In this document: positions 2 through 32,463 of the stretch, in pieces
Numbering within the stretch: the stretch's first letter is position 1
Layout of the letters: each line of letters starts with the position of its first letter
Assembly (NCBI GenBank): GCA_030681595.1
Contig: JAUXSB010000008.1
Span: 153,587-190,713 of the forward strand
From: Candidatus Omnitrophota bacterium
GTDB taxonomy: Bacteria; Omnitrophota; Gorgyraeia; Ghiorseimicrobiales; Ghiorseimicrobiaceae
Reading direction: 5' to 3'
Length of the DNA stretch: 37,127 nucleotides
Program-made: the position numbers and the translations under genes
Notes under the pieces: model-generated
The model's database searches: none
The model's input: the letters and a program-made list of their open reading frames with translations, nothing else
Told to the model about the DNA's origin: nothing

Positions 2-559
2 GCAAGGGCTGTAGCTATAGCCGGCGATAGCGATATTATCGTGACTAAGGAGGGAGATAATACCAGCGACCTAAAAATTCTCTCTAAATTGATTTCAAAG
101 ATTAATGATGGATATGATTTGGTTTTGGCTTCATGTTATGCAAAAGAGGGCGCTGTTTTAGACGCGCCATTATTGCGTAGGATACTAAGCAGGGCAGCGA
201 ATATGCTGCTTGCGTTATGCATAGGGATAAAAGGCGTGCATACCTATAGTTCTTTTTATCGCGCTTATAGCGCAAGGTCGCTGAAAGAAATGCTCTCAAT
301 TTACGACGGCAGGCTCATAGAACAGGATGGCTTTGAATGCATGGTTGAGTTACTCATAAAATTTGGCAGGCATAAAAAATTTAAGATTGCGGAAGTCCCT
401 ATGACGCTGGATGGAAGCCGGAGGGTGGGCAGAAGCAAAATGCGTATCTTAAAAACAATAAAAGGTTTTGTAAGGGTGATTTTAAAGCATGGAATGTTAT
501 ATAGGGTAAAACAGATATTTAAAAAAATTAGGGGTGGGCCGAGCTATGAGTTTAAGTAG
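2..559 (+). CDS. GT2 family glycosyltransferase, 5' end cut by window edge
   Basis: The reading frame is open from base 2, so the gene begins before the window; the GTG at 41 is internal. Only the second half of the enzyme is visible. The segment GDSDIIVTKEGDNTSDL carries the acidic EGDNTSD motif seen in dolichol-phosphate-mannose-synthase-like GT2 enzymes, where acidic residues bind metal and sugar nucleotide. The later piece with EQDGFECMVELL and VPMTLDGSRRVGRSKM fits the usual acceptor loop of this family. No membrane segments follow, unlike the GT2 at 6801. The family transfers a sugar from a nucleotide donor to a polyprenyl phosphate or a growing glycan. The 3' end overlaps the next gene by 14 bases, which suggests translational coupling. 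Family is confident; donor and acceptor are unknown. Confidence 0.85.
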   Translation, partial: ARAVAIAGDSDIIVTKEGDNTSDLKILSKLISKINDGYDLVLASCYAKEGAVLDAPLLRRILSRAANMLLALCIGIKGVHTYSSFYRAYSARSLKEMLSIYDGRLIEQDGFECMVELLIKFGRHKKFKIAEVPMTLDGSRRVGRSKMRILKTIKGFVRVILKHGMLYRVKQIFKKIRGGPSYEFK

Positions 560-1415
560 AAAATCTGTAAAAATCGGCATGGCGCAATTGTTAGTTGAGG
601 GTGGTGAGCCGGAGCGGAATTTAGCCAGAGCCGAAAAAATGATTAAGGATGCGGCTTGCAAGGGATGCCAGATCGTGCTGCTTCCGGAAGTTTTAGATTT
701 AGCCTGGACGCATCCAAGCGCAAAAACAGAAGCACAGCCGATTCCCGGGCCTTATAGCCAACGGCTTTGTGCCGCTGCTAAAGAATACGGTATTTACGTC
801 TGTGCCGGATTAACCGAGAAACAAAAAGAAAAGGTGTATAACACCGCTGTATTTATTGATAAAGAAGGGGATATTTTGCTTAAGTACCATAAAATAAACC
901 TCTTAGACGTGGAACAGCCGTTTTATGCGGTTGGGCAGTCTCTTTCTGTGATAGAGACGCCTTTTGGCTTAATCGGGATAAACATATGCGCGGATAACTA
1001 TTATGATTCATTGCATATCGGCCATGCTTTGGCAAGGATGGGAGCGCAAATAATTTTGTCTCCTTCTTCCTGGACAGTCGATTATTCTATTGATGAAACC
1101 AAAGACCCTTACAGAGAGAAGTGGATAGGCCCGTATTCAATTTTGGCAAAACTTTATAATATAGTGATTGTTGGCACGACGAGCGTTGGGTATATTGTGG
1201 GCGGGCCTTATGAAGGCAAGAAAATGGTTGGTTGCTCTATCGCGGTTAATAAAGACGGCGTAATCGCCAGAGGGCCTTATTTAGAATTTGCCGGAGAACT
1301 TATTGACATAGATATAGAGATTCCGCAAAGAAAGGAAAAAGGAACAGAAATAGGGGTAATGCTGGGTAAGAAAGGATATAGATTCGAAGACCTGAAAGAT
1401 TTGCGCGATATTTAG
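546..1415 (+). CDS. Carbon-nitrogen hydrolase (nitrilase superfamily)
   Basis: A 289-residue protein with the complete nitrilase triad: Glu48 in LLPEVLD, Lys116 in YHKINLL and Cys148 in INICADN. The length matches stand-alone amidase members. The ATG at 546 is preferred over the GTG at 534 because a purine-rich AGGGGTGG lies just upstream and the family's first strand (KIGMAQL) starts about eight residues in. Family members hydrolyse amides or nitriles, and in glutamine-dependent NAD synthetase the same fold supplies ammonia to a PP-loop ATPase. The next gene is a PP-loop amidotransferase, so a role as its glutaminase is attractive. That is inference; it could instead be an independent amidase such as an N-carbamoyl hydrolase. 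It has no signal peptide and should be cytoplasmic. Confidence 0.9.
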   Translation: MSLSRKSVKIGMAQLLVEGGEPERNLARAEKMIKDAACKGCQIVLLPEVLDLAWTHPSAKTEAQPIPGPYSQRLCAAAKEYGIYVCAGLTEKQKEKVYNTAVFIDKEGDILLKYHKINLLDVEQPFYAVGQSLSVIETPFGLIGINICADNYYDSLHIGHALARMGAQIILSPSSWTVDYSIDETKDPYREKWIGPYSILAKLYNIVIVGTTSVGYIVGGPYEGKKMVGCSIAVNKDGVIARGPYLEFAGELIDIDIEIPQRKEKGTEIGVMLGKKGYRFEDLKDLRDI

Positions 1416-1451
1416 TAAATACCAAAATTTTATATAATGAGAGGGAAGAAA

Positions 1452-2702
1452 ATGGAAAATTTAACTAATGAGTTGAAAGATGGCGCGGCTTTATCGGGCG
1501 CGCCGGCAAATGATGGCGGGAAAATAGCCTTAGAGCCGAAGCCTAATAATCAAATCAGGGTTTGCAGCCGTTGTATTATGGATACTACTGCACCTGGGAT
1601 TGTTTTTGATGAAAAAGGAGAATGTGGTTTCTGTAAATTGCATGATAAGCTTGAAAAATTATACCCTCTAAATGAAGATGGCGAAAAAATATTAAATAGA
1701 TTAATCGTAAAGTTGAAGAAGAAAGAGCGAAGCTCGAAATATAATTGTATTATTGGCGTCAGCGGCGGAAGAGATAGCACATATTTATTATATTTAGCAA
1801 AAAAGATATGGGGATTAGAGCCGCTGGCAGTCCATTTTAATGACGGTTTTGATAATCCGGTGGCAGGCGAAAATATAAAAACCGCTGTTAGAAAATTAGG
1901 CGTTGATTTAAGGACGATAACATCAGACTGGCGGGAATCAAAAGATATCAGGATAGCTTTTTTAAAAGCTTCTGTACCAAACCTTGAGGTCGGCACAGAC
2001 TTGGGGATATTTGCGACATTATACGGAGTCGCCGCAAAAGAGAATGTTAAGCATATCCTTACCGCGCATTCTTTCAGGACCGAAGGGATATCGCCGCTTA
2101 CCTGGAATTACCTGGATGGTAAATACCTTAAGAGTATATTGGAGAGGTTTGGAACGGTTAGGCTGAGGGAGTGGAAGCCGGATGACCCGGGTTATAATTT
2201 AAGCCTGTACCATTTATTTTATTATATGTTTTTAAAAAGAATACAAGTCGCGACACCGATGTATTACATCAAATATGTCCGCAAGGATGCCGAGCCGATT
2301 ATCGAAAAAGAGCTGGGATGGGTAAATCCCGGGGCGCATTACTTTGATGATTTATGGCAAAGCCTGCTCTCTTACGTATATAGAGTAAAATTTAATGCCG
2401 ATAAGCGCAAGTTTAATTATTCGGCCCTTATCCGTTCAGGCCAAATGACTAGAGAAGAGGCGCTTGAACGCGTTAGGAGTGTTTATGTGATAGAAGACCC
2501 TAAGATAATCAGCCTTTGCATAAAGCGTTTAGGCATTAGCCAAGAAAAGTTGAATGAGTTTATATCTTATCCGCCTAAAACATTTCAAGATTACCCTAAT
2601 TATTATAATTTTGTAAAGCCGTTTAAGTTCTGGATTAAGATGGCAAGCAGGATGCAGTTAATTCCCGCCGGAACTTATGATAAGCTTTTTAATTGCATAT
2701 AA
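1452..2702 (+). CDS. N-acetyl sugar amidotransferase (PP-loop, WbpG/PseA-like)
   Basis: A 416-residue protein with the layout of the N-acetyl-sugar amidotransferase family: a zinc-ribbon-like CxxC pair (Cys38/41 and Cys58/61) about 40 residues before a PP-loop ATP pyrophosphatase motif, SGGRDST at 104-110. Known relatives (WbpG, PseA/LegG-type) adenylate an acetamido group and replace its oxygen with ammonia to make acetamidino sugars in O-antigen or flagellin glycans. WbpG normally relies on HisH/HisF-like partners for ammonia, and none is encoded in this window; the neighbour is a nitrilase instead. The ATG at 1452 is chosen because GAGAGGGAAG sits ahead of it; the ATG at 1437 would put that purine run inside the gene. 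An N-terminal tail of about 35 residues looks unstructured. Confidence 0.88.
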   Translation: MENLTNELKDGAALSGAPANDGGKIALEPKPNNQIRVCSRCIMDTTAPGIVFDEKGECGFCKLHDKLEKLYPLNEDGEKILNRLIVKLKKKERSSKYNCIIGVSGGRDSTYLLYLAKKIWGLEPLAVHFNDGFDNPVAGENIKTAVRKLGVDLRTITSDWRESKDIRIAFLKASVPNLEVGTDLGIFATLYGVAAKENVKHILTAHSFRTEGISPLTWNYLDGKYLKSILERFGTVRLREWKPDDPGYNLSLYHLFYYMFLKRIQVATPMYYIKYVRKDAEPIIEKELGWVNPGAHYFDDLWQSLLSYVYRVKFNADKRKFNYSALIRSGQMTREEALERVRSVYVIEDPKIISLCIKRLGISQEKLNEFISYPPKTFQDYPNYYNFVKPFKFWIKMASRMQLIPAGTYDKLFNCI

Positions 2703-2705
2703 TTA

Positions 2706-3668
2706 ATGAAATATCTTAGGTTTTTTTTAAATGCCGCAGTCAGCATAATAATTATCGTTTTAATCCTGCAAAAAATAAATTTCGCAGAGGTTTTTGATAT
2801 TGTCCGCCATTCCAAGATGCCATTTTTCCTCTTGTCGCTTTTTATCGGTGCCTTAAGCATCATCATAAATGCTTTTCGCTGGCATCTTTTGTTAAAACAT
2901 TTAGGCTATGTGCATAGTTTAGGCTCTTTATCAAAGGTATCCTTTATCGCCTTATTCTTTAATACTTATTTGCCGGGAGGCATCGCCGGCGATATTGCCC
3001 GGGTTGCTATTTTTCCTAAAGGTAATGGCCAAGAGATGGATAAGGCGCAAACCAGCAAAGTCGCGGCTTCTGTTATCACGGATAGAGTGGTGGGCATGGT
3101 AGGACTTATGATTTTAGCGCTATTAGGGTTGGCGTTTTCTTATGAATTACTCTTTGGGTCAAAGATATTGCCGATATTCGCGGTAATGGCGGTTGTTATT
3201 ATCTTTATTTTTTTCATCTTGTTTAGCAAGAGGGCGCAGCATTTTATTAATGATGTAGTCATGCCTTCTTTTAAGCTGTTGAGCCCGCTGAAATCGGCTG
3301 TAAAGGATGTATCGCGCGCTCTCCTGGCCTATAGGGATAATTATTTAATTTTTGTTAAAGTTATTTCTTTGAGCATGGCCGCGCATTTATGCGTGGTGGG
3401 ATACTTTTTTTTGTTGGCGCGTTCCATAGGAGTGAGTATTAGTTTTTTGAAGCTCCTGGCATTTGTGCCGGTGATTGAGTTTATTTCGGCTCTGCCTATC
3501 AGTTTTGGCGGGGTGGGGGTACGCGAGACAGCGACTATATTCATGTTTTCATCGGAAGGTATTAACGCCCCGGAGGCGATGAGTGTATCGTTGCTTTCTT
3601 TTGTCGTAATTTTATTGCTGGGGCTTGTCGGAGGAGGATTCTTTGCCTGCAGAAACAATAAAAATTGA
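2706..3668 (+). CDS. Flippase-like integral membrane protein (UPF0104/AglD-like)
   Basis: A 320-residue protein made mostly of hydrophobic helices (about eight). It carries two hallmarks of the lysylphosphatidylglycerol-synthase TM-region/UPF0104 superfamily: FLNTYLPGGIAGDIAR and, near the C terminus, PISFGGVGVRET. In bacteria and archaea, stand-alone members such as AglD-like proteins lie in glycan loci and are thought to act on lipid-linked sugars or phospholipids, but the biochemistry is poorly defined. It starts three bases after the previous stop. The C-terminal soluble aminoacyl-phospholipid domain of MprF is absent, so lysyl-PG synthesis is unlikely. Confidence 0.85.
   Translation: MKYLRFFLNAAVSIIIIVLILQKINFAEVFDIVRHSKMPFFLLSLFIGALSIIINAFRWHLLLKHLGYVHSLGSLSKVSFIALFFNTYLPGGIAGDIARVAIFPKGNGQEMDKAQTSKVAASVITDRVVGMVGLMILALLGLAFSYELLFGSKILPIFAVMAVVIIFIFFILFSKRAQHFINDVVMPSFKLLSPLKSAVKDVSRALLAYRDNYLIFVKVISLSMAAHLCVVGYFFLLARSIGVSISFLKLLAFVPVIEFISALPISFGGVGVRETATIFMFSSEGINAPEAMSVSLLSFVVILLLGLVGGGFFACRNNKN
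3630..3637 (+). promoter_or_regulatory. Strong ribosome binding site deciding a TTG start
   Basis: GGAGGAGG lies five bases before the TTG at 3643, inside the last codons of the upstream gene. It supports that TTG over the earlier in-frame TTG at 3625, which would read through the Shine-Dalgarno sequence. Confidence 0.75.
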
Positions 3669-4968
3669 GAAAAATAAACTAACCAAGCGGCATATTTTGC
3701 GCTGGGCATTGATCGGTTTATTTATAAGATTTATATTTATGCCGTTCTTATTCCTTGGACCGGATATTTTTTATATAAATTATTTCCCGTTTAAAGCCGT
3801 GACAGGAGGCGCTTGGGACCCGTATTTATTTTTAGAACAGGCTTTCCCCGGCCAGGCCCATTATGATTATTATTACCCTCCGGTGCCGTTTATTATTCAT
3901 AGTATTTTTATGCTTCCGTTTACGTTTTTTTTGCCTAACCTTAATAATTTGTTTGGCGTTTTCGGGGAATGGAAGTTTATTTTAGACGGCTCAACAGCGC
4001 ATTTCGCCAAGCTTTTAGGCGACTATGATTTATTCCGGACGCTTTTTATTTTTAAAATACCGTATCTTTTATTTGATTTTGCCGCGGGATGGCTAATCCT
4101 CAAGCTATTAAATAGTGACGCAAAAAAGAGCCTTTTTGCTTATAAGCTTTGGATGTTTAACCCGTTCTTACTGCATGCCTGTTATGGCTTGGGCCAAATG
4201 GATATCACGGTTGTCTTTTTTATGCTCGCCGCTATCTATTGTATTAAATTAGATAAAAAATATCTTGCCATGGTATTGCTATCGTTAGGATTTTTGACAA
4301 AGACATTTTTCTTGATCTTGGTTCCTTTGGCAATCTTGATTTTGGGCAGGTCATTTAGAGAGCGGCTGAAATTGTTTGGCGCCTTTATTGTTACCGCCTG
4401 TGTTTTCATTGTGCCGTTTTATCTATCGTCAAACGTTATTAATAAAGCGCTCCTGCTTGCGCCTTCCGGAGTGCCTTTATTGAAACGGGCTTTGTTTTTT
4501 CTGGGGTATTCTGCCATTGCCTTACCTTTATTTTTTTTAAAAAAGGGAAAAATTGAGCTGGATTTGGTTATTTCAAGTTTTGCCGCTTCCCTTTTATTGT
4601 TCTATTCTTTTTATTCCCTTACAACCAGGTATTTTGTTTTGGTAACGCCTTTATTGTTGTACCTGGTTGTTAAGAACAGAAAATTATGGTTTTATATCGC
4701 GATTTTCTCTATTGCTCTACTTGAGCTGGGTATCGCGGCGACTTGGCAGCAAGGGGAATTGTTGGCAAGCCTAAATCCCGAGTTTTTTTCCGGACTGCCG
4801 AAAACTGATGCTTTCATTAATTTATTCTTTAATCTTAAATATGTGCATCAATTTATGTATAGGCTGTTTGTCTTTTCTTCGGTTGCCATGGTTATTCATC
4901 TTCTGGCAGTCAACAGGAAATATTTTAATTTTCCATTTTTAGGGGCTATGAAAAATGACAAAGCTTAA
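3643..4968 (+). CDS. GT-C fold membrane glycosyltransferase (GT87/PMT-like)
   Basis: A 441-residue, many-helix membrane protein. The first loop, containing YYPPVPFIIH, and the block MFNPFLLHACYGLGQMDITVV match the pattern of polyprenyl-phosphate-sugar dependent GT-C enzymes; the NPxxL...GQxD motif is typical of GT87/DUF2029 and PIG-M-like mannosyltransferases. Such enzymes take a sugar from a lipid phosphate carrier and add it on the outer face of the membrane. The TTG start at 3643 follows a perfect GGAGGAGG and overlaps the previous gene by 26 bases. The 3' end overlaps the next gene by 14 bases. Sugar and acceptor are unknown; a donor-making GT2 is encoded at 6801. Confidence 0.75.
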   Translation: MPAETIKIEKNKLTKRHILRWALIGLFIRFIFMPFLFLGPDIFYINYFPFKAVTGGAWDPYLFLEQAFPGQAHYDYYYPPVPFIIHSIFMLPFTFFLPNLNNLFGVFGEWKFILDGSTAHFAKLLGDYDLFRTLFIFKIPYLLFDFAAGWLILKLLNSDAKKSLFAYKLWMFNPFLLHACYGLGQMDITVVFFMLAAIYCIKLDKKYLAMVLLSLGFLTKTFFLILVPLAILILGRSFRERLKLFGAFIVTACVFIVPFYLSSNVINKALLLAPSGVPLLKRALFFLGYSAIALPLFFLKKGKIELDLVISSFAASLLLFYSFYSLTTRYFVLVTPLLLYLVVKNRKLWFYIAIFSIALLELGIAATWQQGELLASLNPEFFSGLPKTDAFINLFFNLKYVHQFMYRLFVFSSVAMVIHLLAVNRKYFNFPFLGAMKNDKA

Positions 4969-7643: not shown

Positions 7644-7693
7644 ATTAGTTGTCCGAAGCATATTCAGGTATTATTCGAAGGAGGAAGATAGGG

Positions 7694-9127
7694 ATGAAGC
7701 TGCTTTTAGTTAATCCGCCTTATCAGATAGAAAAATATTACGGTAGGGTGGCAAAATTGGGTTTTAATTTTCCGCCCATGGCTATTTTGTGTTTGGCAGC
7801 ATACATCCGTGATAAAGGCCACGAAGTAAAAGCGTATGATTTCCAGGCAAATGAAGAAGATTTTTTTAGCTTGCTTGATGATTTTAAGCCCGATGTGGTT
7901 GGGATCACCTGCCATACCGCGTTGGTTTACAGCACTATTGATTTATCTAAAAAAATAAAACAGGTTTTAGGCGCCTGCCGTATTATTGTCGGCGGAAGCC
8001 ATCCTTCAGTAAGGCCGCAAGATTTGTTGGCCGAAGGCTCTATTGATATTGTGGTAAGAGGCGAGGGGGAATTAACCCTTCTTGAAATTTTAGAATATTT
8101 GGAAGGTAAAAAAAACCTGCCCGATATCTTGGGGATTACATATAGGGACGAGTCAGGCGCCTTAATAGCGAATGGCGATAGGCCCCTGATAAAAGATATT
8201 AACACGTTACCGATGCCCGCCTTGGATTTATTGCCGCATGACCGCTACCGCGCAAGCCCGGATATGAGGGTAGGCAAAAAAGTAATGATGCTTTCTACTG
8301 CCAGGGGTTGTCCTTATCGCTGCACTTTTTGCGCTATGAAAGAATCTTTTAGCCAAACATACAGGTCCAGAAGCGTAGAAAATATTTTTAAAGAGATTGA
8401 TTTCTATGTGCAGAATTATTCCGCAGACGGGTTATTCATTGTGGATGAACTATTTACCGCCAATAAGAAGCGCGTATTAGAATTTTGTAACTTGATGATA
8501 GAAAAGGGGTATAGCAAGTCCATAAGTTGGTGGGCGCAGACAAGGGCTGACTGTGTTGATGATGAGATGTTAAAGGTAATGCGCCAAGCCGGCTGTCGCA
8601 TGCTTTCTTTCGGCATAGAATCGGGTGTTGACCGGCTGCTTAAGAGTATCCGGAAGAATATTACCATAAAACAGGTAAAAAATGCCGTGAAGATGGTTAA
8701 TAAAGCAGGAATAGACGCGCGGGGAAGTTTTATCTTAGGGCTTCCCGGAGAGACGTTCTCTGATTCAATAAGGACGATATTATTTGGCCTTTCGCTTCCC
8801 TTGCAGAGGCTAAAATTTGGCCTGGCAACTCCTTTTCCCGGGACAGAGCTATGGGATATCGCTGTCAGGGAAGGAAAGATTAAAGAAAATGAAGATTGGG
8901 ATCGTTTTAGCCTTATGGCAGGGTATACTAAACATGAGGCCCCTTATGTACCGCAAGGCAGGACAAGCAAGCAATTAAGGACGCTGCAGTTGATCGGTAA
9001 TTTTCTTTTTTTTATAAAACCCGGTACAGTTATTAGCGTCCTAAGGTATTATGCTTCATTCGGCGATTTTAAAGGGCTATTGTTTTCATTTAAGGAATTT
9101 CTAAAGGCAACGTTCCTAAGAAAATAG
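7694..9127 (+). CDS. B12-binding domain radical SAM protein
   Basis: A 477-residue protein with an N-terminal cobalamin-binding Rossmann domain (MKLLLVNPP, FPPMAILCLAAYI, DVVGITCHT, IIVGGSHPS, VRGEGE) followed by a radical SAM domain with CxxxCxxC at Cys206, Cys210 and Cys213 (RGCPYRCTFC). The DxHxxG lower-ligand motif of methionine synthase is absent, as is usual in this family. Members include class B methylases and ring-forming or cleaving enzymes. The ATG at 7694 is chosen because GAAGGAGGAAG lies 8-10 bases before it and the B12 domain always opens with this strand; upstream in-frame starts add only a basic tail. Substrate unknown. It is one of three such proteins in the window. Confidence 0.92.
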   Translation: MKLLLVNPPYQIEKYYGRVAKLGFNFPPMAILCLAAYIRDKGHEVKAYDFQANEEDFFSLLDDFKPDVVGITCHTALVYSTIDLSKKIKQVLGACRIIVGGSHPSVRPQDLLAEGSIDIVVRGEGELTLLEILEYLEGKKNLPDILGITYRDESGALIANGDRPLIKDINTLPMPALDLLPHDRYRASPDMRVGKKVMMLSTARGCPYRCTFCAMKESFSQTYRSRSVENIFKEIDFYVQNYSADGLFIVDELFTANKKRVLEFCNLMIEKGYSKSISWWAQTRADCVDDEMLKVMRQAGCRMLSFGIESGVDRLLKSIRKNITIKQVKNAVKMVNKAGIDARGSFILGLPGETFSDSIRTILFGLSLPLQRLKFGLATPFPGTELWDIAVREGKIKENEDWDRFSLMAGYTKHEAPYVPQGRTSKQLRTLQLIGNFLFFIKPGTVISVLRYYASFGDFKGLLFSFKEFLKATFLRK

Positions 9128-14022: not shown

Positions 14023-15498
14023 ATGAAGATTTTATTAGTGAATACACCAATCCGTTTTAACTCCTGGCAAAACCTGGAAATGCCATTGGGCATTGCCTAT
14101 ATTGCCGCCGAACTTGAAAAGTGCCGTCATCAGGTTACGATTAAAGACTATGAGGTCGAATTTTTTAGCACCGAGCAGCTAGAGAAGGAGGTAAGCGATT
14201 TTAATCCGGATATCATTGGTATTTCGTTTAGGTCTTCTTCTTATGGCGCGGCAAAGAAAATCGCAGCCTTCATTAAATCAATAAAGCCTGATATTTATAT
14301 TGTTTTAGGCGGCCATCATGCCAGTGCTTTTAGTAAGGAAACACTAATGGACATTCCTGCTGATTTTGTGGTGAGAGGCGAAGGCGAATATGTAATGAGG
14401 GATTTAGTCGAGATGATTAGTAAAAAAGGTGATTTCGCAAAGATTCCCGGCCTTGCGTACCGCTTTAACGGCCAGATTATCGACAATCCTCCGGCAGAAA
14501 ATATAGCGGATTTAGATAGCATAAGTTTTCCGGCATGGCATTTATTACCGATAGATAAATACGTTACCGGCTCAATTCTTACCAGCCGGGGTTGTCCGTT
14601 TGATTGTATATATTGCGATAAAGGCGTATCAACAAGGAAGGTGCGTTTTAGGTCGATTGAGAATATTTATAATGAAATCGGCGCGTTTGAGAAAAGATAT
14701 AAAAAGGGCAGGATTTATTTTATCGACGACTATTTCTTTTTGCATAAAGAACGCCTAAAGAGCCTTTTTTCCCTTATTTTAAAAAATAGCGAAGTTAAAA
14801 TCCGCTGGTATTGCCAGGCAAGGGTTGACGGGGTTAAGGATATAGAGCTCCTTAAGCAGGCTAAAAAGTGCGGCTGCGAAATGATTATTTACGGAGTTGA
14901 AACCGGTGATGAAGAAGAACTGAAATATATCAACAAGAAGTCCGGGCTTGCGCAGGCAGAAGAAGCAATAAAAAATACGCGAAAGGCGGGTATTAAAGCA
15001 AGAGCCAACTTTATGATTGGTTTTCCTGTTTCTACGGTTAAAACCGTAAGCAACTCTATCCGTTTTGCCAAAAAGTTGAATGCCGACCTTTACAGGTTCT
15101 TTGTTGTTTCGCCTTTACCGAATACTGTTTTATGGGATAGGGTTATAGCGCAACACCCTGAGATCGCAAAAGAAGCCTGGGATAAATTCGATTTTTACAG
15201 TGCTAGCTTTGATACCGCAGGGATAAGAAAAGAAGATTTGGTAAAATACGTATTAGCCGGCTACGTTTATGTGCTAAAAAACAGGGTATTATTCGAGCTA
15301 ACCATCGGCCTTATTCCGCGCTTGTTTAAACTACTTTTTCTCTTTATTAAGACGAGAAGAATCAGGGGAAACCTGTCTAAGGCTTTCCCTTCAAGCGTAA
15401 ATCTTTTTCTGGAAGAATGGTTTATTATGCGCCATATTCCGCATAAAGATAGGTTAACTTATTTAAAAGAGATGCTTGTTATTGCAGGCAAGTTTTAG
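14023..15498 (+). CDS. B12-binding domain radical SAM protein
   Basis: A 491-residue protein with an N-terminal cobalamin-binding domain (MKILLVNTP, PLGIAYIAAEL, DIIGISFRSSSYG, IVLGGHHAS, VVRGEGE) and a radical SAM domain with CxxxCxxC at Cys191, Cys195 and Cys198 (TSRGCPFDCIYC). The barrel continues through IYFIDDYFFLHKERL and YGVETGDEEEL. The C-terminal 100 residues are basic and partly hydrophobic, as in membrane-associated members that act on lipids. It starts one base after the preceding stop. Substrate unknown; class B methyl transfer is the commonest known reaction of this architecture. Confidence 0.92.
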   Translation: MKILLVNTPIRFNSWQNLEMPLGIAYIAAELEKCRHQVTIKDYEVEFFSTEQLEKEVSDFNPDIIGISFRSSSYGAAKKIAAFIKSIKPDIYIVLGGHHASAFSKETLMDIPADFVVRGEGEYVMRDLVEMISKKGDFAKIPGLAYRFNGQIIDNPPAENIADLDSISFPAWHLLPIDKYVTGSILTSRGCPFDCIYCDKGVSTRKVRFRSIENIYNEIGAFEKRYKKGRIYFIDDYFFLHKERLKSLFSLILKNSEVKIRWYCQARVDGVKDIELLKQAKKCGCEMIIYGVETGDEEELKYINKKSGLAQAEEAIKNTRKAGIKARANFMIGFPVSTVKTVSNSIRFAKKLNADLYRFFVVSPLPNTVLWDRVIAQHPEIAKEAWDKFDFYSASFDTAGIRKEDLVKYVLAGYVYVLKNRVLFELTIGLIPRLFKLLFLFIKTRRIRGNLSKAFPSSVNLFLEEWFIMRHIPHKDRLTYLKEMLVIAGKF

Positions 15499-25317: not shown

Positions 25318-26775
25318 ATGAGAATACTGTTAGTGCAACCACCTTTTACTATTTTTAAATCTGAAAGCAAGAAATGCCATCCGCCACTCGGTCTTGCTTA
25401 TTTAGCAGGAATATTGAAACAAGAACATCATATTTCAGTCTTAGACGCTTTAGCAGAGGGATATCATAATCAGGAAAACCTTAATAGGGAATATGTAAGA
25501 TACGGTTTATCATTTAATGGCATCAAAAAAAGGATCGAATTCCTTAAGCCGGATGTGGTTGGGATTTCTTGCCTTTTTTCAGCACAGGCCGAAAATGTTC
25601 ATCAGATATGCAGCATTGTCAAAGAGGTAAACAAAAAAATTATTACTGTGGTTGGCGGTGCCCATCCTTCCGCAAAACCCGAAGAAACCATTTATGATAA
25701 TAATGTTGATTATACGGTTATTGGCGAAGGAGAAAATGCCTTTAGCGCCTTACTAGAATGTTTGAATGACAAAAAAGACATTTGTGGAATAGATGGTATC
25801 GGTTTTAGGCACAATGGTGATATAAAAGTTAATAGAAGAAAAAAATATGAAGACGATCTCGACAATCTGCCATTTCCACATTGGGATATTTTTCCATTAG
25901 AAAGATATTTTGAAATTAATAATCCTCATGGTAGTCCAGCGCGTAAAGTTCCTTTCTTGCCGATGATTACTTCTAGGGGTTGTCCTTTTGAATGTATTTT
26001 TTGTTCAATTCATAATTTATGGGGAAGAAATTATCGGACAAGGTCAGCTGAAAACGTATTATCAGAAATGAATAATCTGAGGACAAAATATGGAGTTAAA
26101 GAGATTTTGTTTGAAGACGATAATCTTACCCTTGATAAAGAACGTGCCATATCGATATTTCGCGGCATAATCGATCGAAAGTTTGATATATGTTGGAATG
26201 TGCCTAACGGGTTAGCGGTAGAGACTCTAGACGATGGAATAATGGAGCTGATGAAAAGAAGTGGTTGTTATCGTATAAGTATCGGGGTCGAGTCTGGAGA
26301 CGAGTATATGCTGAAAAATATAATCAAAAAGCCCATAACGCTAATGAAAATAAAACCCATTATAAATAAAGCCAAAAGATTAAATATAGAAACAGTAGCG
26401 TTTTTTGTGGTAGGGTTGCCAGGAGAAAACCATGAGAGTTTAAAAAATACCTTTCGCTTTGCCGAAAGCTTAGAAGCGGATAACATCAACTTTTTTTTTG
26501 CTACTCCTTTGCCGGGGACACGATTATTTGAAGTATGTAAAAAAGAATCCCTAATTAATACCGATATTGACTATGCGAGATTAAAATCTGATTGTCCTAG
26601 TTTCGCAACTAAGGAATTTTCAATAAATGAATTAAGGAAAGCCGTTGCTTACGAAAAATTAAAGTTATATTTCTTATTTTTGTTAAGGCATCCCGGAAGA
26701 TTCTTCTCTAAATTTGTAGATAAACTTTTAAAGGATCCAGCTTATTTTTTAAGGTTTAAGAGAAGACATTTTTAA
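25318..26775 (+). CDS. B12-binding domain radical SAM protein (third copy)
   Basis: A 485-residue protein with a cobalamin-binding domain (MRILLVQPPF, HPPLGLAYLAGIL, DVVGISCLFSAQ, VVGGAHPSAKPEE, VIGEGEN) and a radical SAM domain with CxxxCxxC at Cys222, Cys226 and Cys229 (RGCPFECIFC). YRISIGVESGDEYML and VVGLPGENHESL are typical barrel blocks. It is more AT-rich by eye than its neighbours and is bracketed by an IS3 remnant and a broken copy of the next gene, which suggests it arrived separately. The Shine-Dalgarno is weak (AAGAAAAATT). Substrate unknown. Confidence 0.92.
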   Translation: MRILLVQPPFTIFKSESKKCHPPLGLAYLAGILKQEHHISVLDALAEGYHNQENLNREYVRYGLSFNGIKKRIEFLKPDVVGISCLFSAQAENVHQICSIVKEVNKKIITVVGGAHPSAKPEETIYDNNVDYTVIGEGENAFSALLECLNDKKDICGIDGIGFRHNGDIKVNRRKKYEDDLDNLPFPHWDIFPLERYFEINNPHGSPARKVPFLPMITSRGCPFECIFCSIHNLWGRNYRTRSAENVLSEMNNLRTKYGVKEILFEDDNLTLDKERAISIFRGIIDRKFDICWNVPNGLAVETLDDGIMELMKRSGCYRISIGVESGDEYMLKNIIKKPITLMKIKPIINKAKRLNIETVAFFVVGLPGENHESLKNTFRFAESLEADNINFFFATPLPGTRLFEVCKKESLINTDIDYARLKSDCPSFATKEFSINELRKAVAYEKLKLYFLFLLRHPGRFFSKFVDKLLKDPAYFLRFKRRHF

Positions 26776-30004: not shown

Positions 30005-30580
30005 ATGCTAAGGCCAGCGTTAGATACGAGCGTTAGTTTAGTATTGCCAAAACTTATATTTAAATATGTCAAATTTATTTATAAGGGAATAGTTTCTTTA
30101 TATAAAAATAGCCTGATACGCCGGTTATCCGGTAGATTTAGCGAAAAAATAATAACGTACTTTACTTATAGTATTTTTGGTTCAATTACCCAAAGAAAAA
30201 ATACGGAATATCTTGTTTTATACAATAGCCGCCTGGCGTTATTTTTTATGAATTGCGGCAAGAGGTATAAAAATGGGTTATTAGGTTATTCAAGCATAAG
30301 TAAAACGGTAAGGCAGATAAAATCGATTAAGGCGGATTTTATTCTTTCGCCATTGCGGATAATCGGCATTATGATTATTAGCGCTGTTGCCGCGAATATT
30401 TTCTTAAATATTCTTTTTAATAACGATGTTTCGCTATTAGGCTGGATGACGCGATGCATGTTTATTGTAGTGGGGATTATTGGCGCCTCTTGCAAGACAG
30501 ATTTGCAGGCACTTAAGAACGGTAGTTTTATAGTAAAGAAAATTTTTAGCCCAATATGTGCGGAATTTGCGGAAAAATAA
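30005..30580 (+). CDS. Two-TM protein of unknown function
   Basis: I do not recognise this 191-residue protein. The first 115 residues are basic and soluble (SLYKNSLIRRLSGRFSEKII, SISKTVRQIKSIKADFILSP); two hydrophobic helices follow (about 118-136 and 148-165). It is sandwiched between the DUF4330 gene, which it overlaps or nearly touches (GTG at 29999 or ATG at 30005), and the asparagine-synthase-like gene, which starts 25 bases before it ends. The tight coupling implies a shared role. The ATG is preferred over the GTG because the GTG overlaps the previous stop; either is possible. Confidence 0.65.
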   Translation: MLRPALDTSVSLVLPKLIFKYVKFIYKGIVSLYKNSLIRRLSGRFSEKIITYFTYSIFGSITQRKNTEYLVLYNSRLALFFMNCGKRYKNGLLGYSSISKTVRQIKSIKADFILSPLRIIGIMIISAVAANIFLNILFNNDVSLLGWMTRCMFIVVGIIGASCKTDLQALKNGSFIVKKIFSPICAEFAEK

Positions 30581-32463
30581 GCCTTAATGCGGGCGAAGTG
30601 GACCGAAATGTAATTCAAAGAATGACCGATGTGCTTGCGCATCGCGGCCCGGATGAAGAAGGGGTATACCTATCAGGAGGGATTAGCCAAAATTCGCCTG
30701 TTAGGGTCGCGTTAGGGCACAGGAGATTAAAGATTATTGATTTGTCGTCTAACGGGCATCAGCCGATGGGCAATGAAGACGGCTCTGTATGGATAGCCTA
30801 TAACGGGGAGATTTATAATTTTAAAGAACTGCGCGCTGAATTAGAAGAAAAGAAGCATATTTTTAAATCAAATACCGATACAGAAGTCATCGTTCATCTT
30901 TATGAAGAGTTGGGCGTTGATTGCGTAAAGCATTTAAGGGGGATGTTCGCGTTTGCCATATGGGATAAGAAAAAAGAGCGTTTATTCCTCGCGCGGGATA
31001 GGTTAGGCAAGAAGCCTTTAAATTACGCCTACAAAAATGGAAGTTTGATATTTTCTTCAGAAATAAGGCCGATATTAGAAGATCCATCGATTAGCCGCAG
31101 CGTAAAAATAGAATCACTGCATAATTATCTTAGCTATCTATATGTGCCTTGCCCTGAGACGATGTTTGAGGGGATAAATAAACTTGCGCCCGCGCATATT
31201 TTAGTTTGGGAAAAAGGCGAGATTAAAATAGAGAAGTATTGGAGTTTAAGCTACGCCAAAAAAATAAAAATGCCGCAGGAGGAATATTGCCAAAAAATAT
31301 TAGAGCTCTTTACTGACGCGATAAAGGCTAGGTTAATAAGCGATGTGCCCTTAGGCGTATTTTTAAGCGGCGGAATAGATTCGTCGGCGGTAGTGGCATT
31401 GATGAGCAAGGTTTTAAATAGGCCGGTTAAGACTTTTTCTATAGGTTTTAACGAAGCTTCTTTTAATGAGCTTAGATACGCGCGTATAGTCGCTAATACT
31501 TTTTGTACGGAGCATAAAGAGTATGTTGTGACGCCAAAAGCCTTAGATATTTTGCCGAAATTAATCAGGCATTTTGGCGAGCCCTTTGCTGATTCTTCAA
31601 GTATCCCGGAATATTATCTTTCTATGCTTGCGCGTAAGGATGTGACTGTCGCGTTAAGCGGAGATGCCGGAGATGAGCTGTTTGCTGGTTATGACCGGTA
31701 TGCGGCGAATAAACTGGCAGGATATTATAGCTCATTTCCTCGTTTATTTCGTAATCGGATCAGCCGTTTTCTGGAAAAATTTCCCGAATCAACGGCTAAA
31801 AAGGGTATTATTAAGAGAATCAAGCGATTTATTAATGCCAGTGATTTACCGAAAGAGAAAAGATACGCTGCGTGGGTATCGGCTTTTGACAATGTATTAA
31901 AAGAAAAAATTTATTCCCGCCAGATGCAAGAGCGCTTAGAAAACATTGATTCCTGCGATTATATCTTAGATATGTATCGTAAATCGGACGCGGTAGACTT
32001 TATAGATTCAACGTTATTTGTAGATACTATGACATACCTGCCGAATGACTTATTGGTAAAGGTTGATATTGTTTCTATGGCAAACTCTTTGGAAGTACGT
32101 TCGCCATTTTTGGACCATAAATTAGTAGAATTTGCCGCGCAGATTCCTTCTTCCTTGAAATTAAAAGGGTTAACTACGAAGTATATCTTAAAACAGGCAT
32201 TAAGAAAATTGCTTCCTAGAGAGATTATACAGCGTAGAAAAGAAGGCTTTGGAGTACCTGTCGGGCGATGGTTTCAGAATGAGATTAAAGACTACGCCTA
32301 TAACTTATTATTAAGTAAGCCTAGTATCGGGAGGGGCTATTTTAGGCCGGAGGCAATCAGAGAGATGTTTAATGAGCATATAAGCGGAAAGATTGACCAC
32401 GGGCAACGCATTTGGATTTTGTTAAATTTGGAGCTTTGGCATCAGGCGTTTATCGATAAATAA
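30556..32463 (+). CDS. asnB: Asparagine synthase-like glutamine amidotransferase
   Basis: A 635-residue protein starting MCGICG, so Cys2 is the N-terminal nucleophile of a class II glutaminase domain (AHRGPDEEG, YNGEIYNFKELR, then EVIVHLYEELG). The synthetase domain has the PP-loop SGGIDSS (271-277), SGDAGDELFAGYDRY and LEVRSPFLDHKLVEF. It matches AsnB in full length. In polysaccharide loci AsnB paralogues often amidate uronic acids or other sugar or lipid carboxylates rather than aspartate, so the symbol refers to the family only. It starts inside the end of the unknown two-TM gene. Confidence 0.9.
   Translation: MCGICGKISLNAGEVDRNVIQRMTDVLAHRGPDEEGVYLSGGISQNSPVRVALGHRRLKIIDLSSNGHQPMGNEDGSVWIAYNGEIYNFKELRAELEEKKHIFKSNTDTEVIVHLYEELGVDCVKHLRGMFAFAIWDKKKERLFLARDRLGKKPLNYAYKNGSLIFSSEIRPILEDPSISRSVKIESLHNYLSYLYVPCPETMFEGINKLAPAHILVWEKGEIKIEKYWSLSYAKKIKMPQEEYCQKILELFTDAIKARLISDVPLGVFLSGGIDSSAVVALMSKVLNRPVKTFSIGFNEASFNELRYARIVANTFCTEHKEYVVTPKALDILPKLIRHFGEPFADSSSIPEYYLSMLARKDVTVALSGDAGDELFAGYDRYAANKLAGYYSSFPRLFRNRISRFLEKFPESTAKKGIIKRIKRFINASDLPKEKRYAAWVSAFDNVLKEKIYSRQMQERLENIDSCDYILDMYRKSDAVDFIDSTLFVDTMTYLPNDLLVKVDIVSMANSLEVRSPFLDHKLVEFAAQIPSSLKLKGLTTKYILKQALRKLLPREIIQRRKEGFGVPVGRWFQNEIKDYAYNLLLSKPSIGRGYFRPEAIREMFNEHISGKIDHGQRIWILLNLELWHQAFIDK

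Follow-up and report, generated by a model that had tools for sequence, protein, structure and literature searches.

Which protein supplies ammonia to an N-acetyl sugar amidotransferase (NASAT) that is encoded without HisH and HisF? The question is raised by two neighbouring genes in a stretch of DNA of 37,127 nucleotides from Candidatus Omnitrophota bacterium (the window), the first encoding a nitrilase-superfamily protein (NIT) and the second a NASAT of the WbpG/WbuX/PseA family. An earlier note, made from the letters of the window, had suggested that the pair may be a two-gene version of glutamine-dependent NAD synthetase, in which a nitrilase glutaminase is joined to a PP-loop ATPase. The genome comprises 1.94 Mb and is 93.9% complete, and the window is located on its contig C11.

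The nitrilase and the amidotransferase of the window

The features of the pair are given below. Residue counts over 80 refer to the best 80 of 148 nitrilase relatives from the public-genome scan described in the next section.

546..1415, + strand: NIT, nitrilase-superfamily protein, proposed glutaminase subunit (PF00795, 114 bits; 12-sequence alignment; pairing)
687..689, + strand: codon of catalytic Glu48 of NIT, invariant in the best 80 of 148 relatives
891..893, + strand: codon of catalytic Lys116 of NIT, invariant in the best 80 of 148 relatives
912..914, + strand: second Glu of the NIT site (E123), in the loop after the catalytic Lys; E in 74/80, G, A or C in 6/80
987..989, + strand: codon of catalytic Cys148 of NIT, invariant in the best 80 of 148 relatives
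1437..2702, + strand: NASAT (TIGR03573, 228.3 bits against a cut-off of 203.2)
1563..1574, + strand: first CxxC of the zinc tetracysteine motif of NASAT (C43, C46), kept in 77/78 clade members
1623..1634, + strand: second CxxC (C63, C66), kept in 77/78 clade members
1761..1778, + strand: PP-loop SGGRDS of NASAT (residues 109-114; S109GGRDST), invariant in 78/78 clade members

NIT has 289 amino acids when counted from the ATG at 546, and a GTG further upstream, at 534, is a possible alternative start. The PF00795 fold and the Glu-Lys-Cys triad place it in the nitrilase (CN-hydrolase) superfamily, as do Foldseek matches to nitrilases. The earlier note had positioned the triad correctly. Three nitrilase-family genes were found in the window genome: NIT, a NadE-like gene with a nitrilase domain (on contig C57) and an Lnt-sized ORF.

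NASAT belongs to its family by a TIGR03573 score above the curated cut-off, the PP-loop SGGxDS and the tetracysteine CxxC...CxxC, which bears out the identification made from SGGRDST and the two CxxC pairs. It is the only NASAT above the TIGR03573 cut-off in the genome, and its closest solved chain is 8WEX. It is not a NadE-type PP-loop synthetase, as the NAD+ synthase model gives it 20 bits and TIGR03573 gives it 228. In its accessible part, the NASAT structure paper (PMC10607449) describes the zinc tetracysteine motif and likens the PP-loop to that of NadE, and that part does not name the ammonia source. Dedicated HisH and HisF partners, which are usual for the family yet outside its definition, are lacking for the NASAT of the window. 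The likelier start is the ATG at 1452, with GAGAGG just 5' of it. The gap of 36 bases reported earlier holds for this start; from the ATG at 1437 the gap is 21 nt.

The pair recurs across phyla

NIT was used as the query against 384 genomes of the phylum. Close orthologs were present in 13 genomes, the window genome included. The other 12 share 59-74% identity with NIT, below which there is a sharp fall to at most 37%. A NASAT adjoins the ortholog in 12 of the 13 genomes; in G064, the two genes share a contig at a distance of about 3 kb.

Public genomes were scanned with an alignment of NIT orthologs (12 sequences), and the best 80 of 148 stretches encoding a relative were kept. Among these best 80 of 148, a NASAT was nearby in all 80 loci and directly adjacent in 79, with the order NASAT-nitrilase in two of the 79. 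In the remaining locus (L099, the G064 locus), the two genes are 3.2 kb apart and a nitrilase remnant is next to the NASAT. The 80 relatives are from Omnitrophota, Bacteroidota, Acidobacteriota, Myxococcota, Nitrospinota, Bdellovibrionota, Verrucomicrobiota and Pseudomonadota. The set is uneven: over half is one genus (Hymenobacter and its relative Solirubrum account for 44 of these best 80 loci), and some Omnitrophota loci are records already present in the phylum search. Since the scan chose loci by nitrilase sequence alone, the NASAT pairing was not built in, and it is more than chance. Operon pairing with a PP-loop amidotransferase, as expected of a class IV glutaminase, was thus found in 80/80 of the best 80 of 148 loci.

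A single-frame ORF fusing nitrilase and NASAT was searched for among the pair loci and none was found. Five loci, four of them from Bacteroidota, have neither a NASAT ATG nor a common start codon upstream of the Cys motif in the following regions.

L096:10805-10900, locus without NASAT start
L097:3885-3980, locus without NASAT start
L104:10780-10870, locus without NASAT start
L107:10795-10890, locus without NASAT start
L112:10795-10890, locus without NASAT start

In all five, the NASAT frame is +1 relative to the nitrilase. Codon-position differences of 27, 8 and 71 just past the nitrilase stop indicate that the region after the stop is translated in the NASAT frame. From these sequence features, the five loci are candidates for a +1 programmed frameshift that would yield a fused nitrilase-NASAT protein. 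Broken copies also occur: the G109 nitrilase (L029:1433-2244) and the L134 NASAT (L134:3810-5176) each extend over two frames.

Nitrilase and HisH/HisF exclude each other

No HisH or HisF homologue is encoded in the window, as previously noted, and C11 has neither a clear PF00977 match nor a PF00117 match. Clear HisA/HisF (PF00977) matches of the window genome are confined to the histidine operon on contig C59, which also includes HisH; GATase (PF00117) matches are on C2, C7, C57 and C59. HisH/HisF homologues elsewhere in the genome, which the earlier note had named as evidence against its proposal, are therefore absent beyond the histidine operon.

For the locus scan, profiles of HisF and HisH were built and searched against flanks that reach 10 kb at most and are shorter where the contig is short. 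HisH/HisF was found within these flanks in 0/81 nitrilase loci. The neighbourhood check that had been proposed for the pair thus gave both recurrence and absence of the usual partners. At other NASAT loci of the same phylum, HisH and HisF were both present within 5 kb in 34/40 and missing in 6/40, and none of these 40 canonical loci has a nitrilase of the NIT type. Nitrilase and HisH/HisF are mutually exclusive NASAT partners, locus by locus, and the pair is a real, conserved replacement of HisH/HisF.

We also considered whether the NASAT borrows the histidine HisH/HisF in trans, the nitrilase being unrelated. One histidine HisF is retained in most genomes searched, as this would require. Genome-wide PF00977 searches of 12 genomes from Hymenobacter and its relative gave exactly two matches in all 12, namely HisA and HisF, with no second HisF beyond the histidine one. 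However, the nitrilase pairing is constant, and the pair-bearing genomes G064 and G398 (Bdellovibrionales) have no HisA/HisF match at all (zero for PF00977 at E <= 1e-20), possibly owing to incomplete assemblies. In addition, the hisF of the window genome (G000:C59:26868-27642; L007, L008) is itself interrupted by a short repeat-like, frame-changing insert, which is either real or an assembly error. Given the genome-wide PF00977 matches, we rejected borrowing as the main explanation and consider it extremely improbable.

The partnered amidotransferases form one clade

A tree of 98 NASAT sequences was built by a quick method with SH-aLRT support and without bootstrap. The 31 nitrilase-partnered NASATs and one orphan form one clade (SH-aLRT 100). 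The clade is marked by HFND (31/31 clade NASATs versus 0/67 others) and by a W...[DN]PG stretch (26/31 versus 1/67). One clade NASAT, L169, has no adjoining nitrilase, and its genome encodes one elsewhere on the contig. The nearest group includes five HisH/HisF loci and three HisF-only loci. Since the clade is single and its nearest relatives mostly use HisH/HisF, a single replacement of the partner is suggested. The simplest history suggested by the tree is that HisH/HisF was swapped once for the nitrilase and that the pair then spread horizontally.

One candidate for a nitrilase-specific contact element, the C-terminal extension of NASAT, was discarded, as it also occurs in the nearest HisF-using group. 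Several other arrangements were seen among the NASAT loci. L157, L160 and L161, of the nearest HisF-using group, have HisF nearby without HisH. ORFs matching both HisF and HisH are next to the NASAT in L184, L191 and L199, and L193:4947-7439 is a tandem NASAT-NASAT fusion ORF with a frame of 831 amino acids.

Gene context of the pair

The genes flanking the pair in the window are as follows.

2..559, + strand: GT2-family glycosyltransferase of the polyprenyl-phosphate type, 3' part (PF00535 on the whole gene, L017:723-1514; weak NF041391/PRK10714-like matches)
2706..3668, + strand: flippase-like membrane protein, LPG_synthase_TM / TIGR00374 (PF03706, 161 bits; TIGR00374 above cut-off)
3625..4968, + strand: predicted membrane protein of about 8 spans, no family assigned (hydropathy estimate)

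The GT2 reading frame overlaps the NIT start by 14 nt. The protein at 3625..4968 had no match in Pfam or NCBIfam; it is placed near where other NIT-NASAT loci encode a protein with 7-10 spans. The surrounding island encodes glycosyltransferases, GT-C-like (PMT_2) proteins and B12-radical SAM enzymes, and no aminotransferase or Gfo/Idh gene was found near the pair in the window. Five B12-binding radical SAM genes in about 35 kb among glycosyltransferases are unusually dense for a glycan island.

Window 7649-9127: B12-binding radical SAM gene
Window 14023-15498: B12-binding radical SAM gene
Window 25318-26775: B12-binding radical SAM gene
L217:7696-9096: B12-binding radical SAM gene
L217:13847-15355: B12-binding radical SAM gene

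Also encoded in the same island (window 30556-32463) is an asparagine-synthase-type protein that carries a class II glutaminase domain of its own.

In 20/36 non-Hymenobacter loci, at least two of a DegT aminotransferase, an SDR 4,6-dehydratase-like protein, a Gfo/Idh dehydrogenase and a NeuD-type acetyltransferase are encoded near the pair. Enzymes of these types produce N-acetylated diamino sugars. Of the 36 loci, 21 encode an ArnC/PgfS-like GT2 or a small EamA membrane protein, often directly 5' of the pair, and 12 encode a protein with 7-10 membrane spans. Judged by family names, this cassette fits a role in which an N-acetylated diamino sugar would be put onto a polyprenyl-phosphate carrier, flipped and transferred. 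In Hymenobacter (L084-L155), the position of the pair is fixed, next to valS and an acyl-CoA reductase-like gene, and resembles a core-genome location. These loci lack DegT, SDR and Gfo/Idh genes near the pair, and a NeuD-type acetyltransferase is near in 23/44. Across such very different contexts, only NIT and NASAT are constant.

The Hymenobacter loci bear on a further alternative, that the clade NASAT has ceased to form amidines and that the pair makes a different nitrogen group, perhaps on a substrate other than a sugar, the nitrilase still providing the nitrogen. A conserved core locus largely free of sugar genes would suit this, as would the clade's own signatures, HFND in all members and W...[DN]PG in most. 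On the other hand, the NASAT of the window still exceeds the TIGR03573 cut-off and retains the tetracysteine and the PP-loop, and amino-sugar genes are beside the pair in many other lineages. We regard this alternative as very unlikely.

Kinship of the nitrilase and structure models

By sequence, the solved structures closest to NIT are PH0642-type amidases and Nit2. By fold (Foldseek), they are Nit2, N-carbamoylputrescine amidase and the glutaramide-bound P. horikoshii amidase. NIT scores 86 bits to the nitrilase model NF040852 versus 47 to the NAD+ synthase model, NadE is absent from its PDB profile matches at 1e-10, and it shares 24% identity with the NadE-like nitrilase domain of the same genome. 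No closer kinship to the NAD synthetase glutaminase domain than to other nitrilases was therefore found, and a NadE-derived nitrilase was rejected on the profile scores and PDB matches. Since NIT is more distant from NAD synthetase than from PH0642/Nit2-type amidases, it is probably not a borrowed NadE subunit; its position among nitrilases looks like independent recruitment.

Beside the catalytic Cys, position 149 is Ala or Ser in NIT versus Glu in the NAD synthetase glutaminase. This lack of Glu149, the absence of the second Glu in 6/80 of the best 80 of 148 relatives, and the nearness to general amidases weigh against an ammonia supply by NIT. One alternative is that the NASAT uses free ammonia and that the nitrilase is a separate pathway enzyme acting on an amide, carbamoyl or acyl group of the same sugar or carrier. 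The closest solved relatives of NIT are indeed amidases and carbamoyl-amide hydrolases, and a NodU/CmcH-type carbamoyltransferase is near the pair in nine Bacteroidota loci, directly downstream in several (e.g. L104:11960-13663, L144:12021-13655). Moreover, free ammonia is the in vivo substrate of many single-domain NAD synthetases (PMC3376133). Nevertheless, free ammonia leaves both the exclusion between nitrilase and HisH/HisF and the one-clade switch unexplained, and the retention of the two genes together in very different gene contexts also argues against it. We consider this alternative unlikely.

NIT and NASAT of the window are in one frame, and the read-through of TAG and TAA was folded as a single chain. 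For the chain 546-2699 (67 alignment rows), AlphaFold predicted the single domains well (pLDDT 85.5) and gave a pTM of 0.60, about the value for independent domains. The L081 read-through fusion (23 paired rows) gave a pTM of 0.51, poorer than the window model. With these pTM values, neither model gives a confident domain orientation or interface, or a basis for proposing an ammonia tunnel. The fused model aligns nearly full length with glutamine-dependent NAD synthetases in Foldseek, with an rmsd of 22-27. The fused model has the same predicted folds in the same order as NAD synthetases, which refers to domain order and not to spatial arrangement. The loop after the catalytic Lys has the lowest confidence of the nitrilase domain in the window model and is low in the L081 model also. 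The ammonia tunnel of NAD synthetase is gated by the corresponding loop, called the YRE loop (PMC6946656).

Proposed function

The best explanation, which we consider probable, is that the nitrilase supplies the NASAT with ammonia. As the pair travels together across many phyla in place of HisH/HisF, NIT is probably the ammonia feeder. The best reading of the pair looks like a class IV (nitrilase-type) glutaminase serving a NASAT. The two genes would encode one ATP-dependent amidotransferase. The PP-loop of NASAT would activate an N-acetylated sugar by adenylation of its acetamido oxygen, and ammonia would displace AMP to give an acetamidino (amidine) group. NIT, replacing both HisH (glutaminase) and HisF (conduit), would hydrolyse a primary amide, most likely that of glutamine, through its Glu-Lys-Cys triad. 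NASAT would receive the ammonia from it in the way that the PP-loop subunit of glutamine-dependent NAD synthetase is served by its nitrilase subunit. We infer glutamine as the substrate, the glutaminase activity, the direct complex, the channelling and the amidine sugar product. The amidino-sugar product appears least supported in Hymenobacter, with the pair beside valS and most sugar genes missing.

A more extended proposal is possible, though doubtful. The pair would be a second family of nitrilase-glutaminase amidotransferases in which HisH/HisF was replaced once, and some Bacteroidota would fuse the two proteins by a +1 programmed frameshift. As part of the ArnC/EamA/membrane-transferase-like cassette of Omnitrophota and other lineages, the pair would yield a cationic amidino sugar bound to a polyprenyl-phosphate carrier, as a counterpart of L-Ara4N decoration.

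The class IV nitrilase-like glutaminase is given solely as a component of NAD synthetase in PMC3376133, and we found no literature joining NASAT with a nitrilase in a search that left most subscription papers outside. If ammonia supply by NIT is true, this would be a second, independent recruitment for another PP-loop enzyme, showing that nitrilases can be reused as sources of ammonia and that NASAT can exchange its HisH/HisF module. A gene pair that occurs throughout Hymenobacter and sporadically in several other phyla would also gain a function, and amidino groups would be expected in places where they have never been sought. The pair occurs in cultured Hymenobacter strains, so this reading is directly testable.

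Comparison with known systems

WbpG/WbuX/PseA NASATs with dedicated HisH and HisF (AglZ/HisF2 type) share TIGR03573, the PP-loop SGGxDS and the tetracysteine zinc motif with the NASAT of the window, and many window-type loci are also among amino-sugar genes. In contrast, the window-type pair has a nitrilase instead of HisH/HisF, and its NASATs are a separate clade with HFND and mostly an added W...[DN]PG stretch.

The closest solved relatives of NIT in sequence and fold (PH0642-type archaeal amidase, mammalian Nit2, an omega-amidase, and N-carbamoylputrescine amidase) act on primary amides or ureido groups and share 20-25% identity with NIT in the fold search. We know of none that partners an ATP-dependent amidotransferase.

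The NAD synthetase of Thermus thermophilus (TTC1538-TTC1539) is encoded by a two-gene operon for a nitrilase subunit and a PP-loop subunit; the complex uses glutamine, and the PP-loop subunit alone is active only with ammonia (PMC3376133). It differs from NIT-NASAT in the PP-loop family and the substrate, and NIT does not derive from the NAD synthetase glutaminase as far as can be judged from sequence. In addition, complex formation and glutamine use are demonstrated for T. thermophilus and are predicted for NIT-NASAT. Both are operons of a nitrilase and a PP-loop amidotransferase, with domain folds in the order of fused NAD synthetases. Together with the exclusion of HisH/HisF and the single clade, this precedent favours the view that the pair of the window may be a two-gene version of the nitrilase and PP-loop arrangement.
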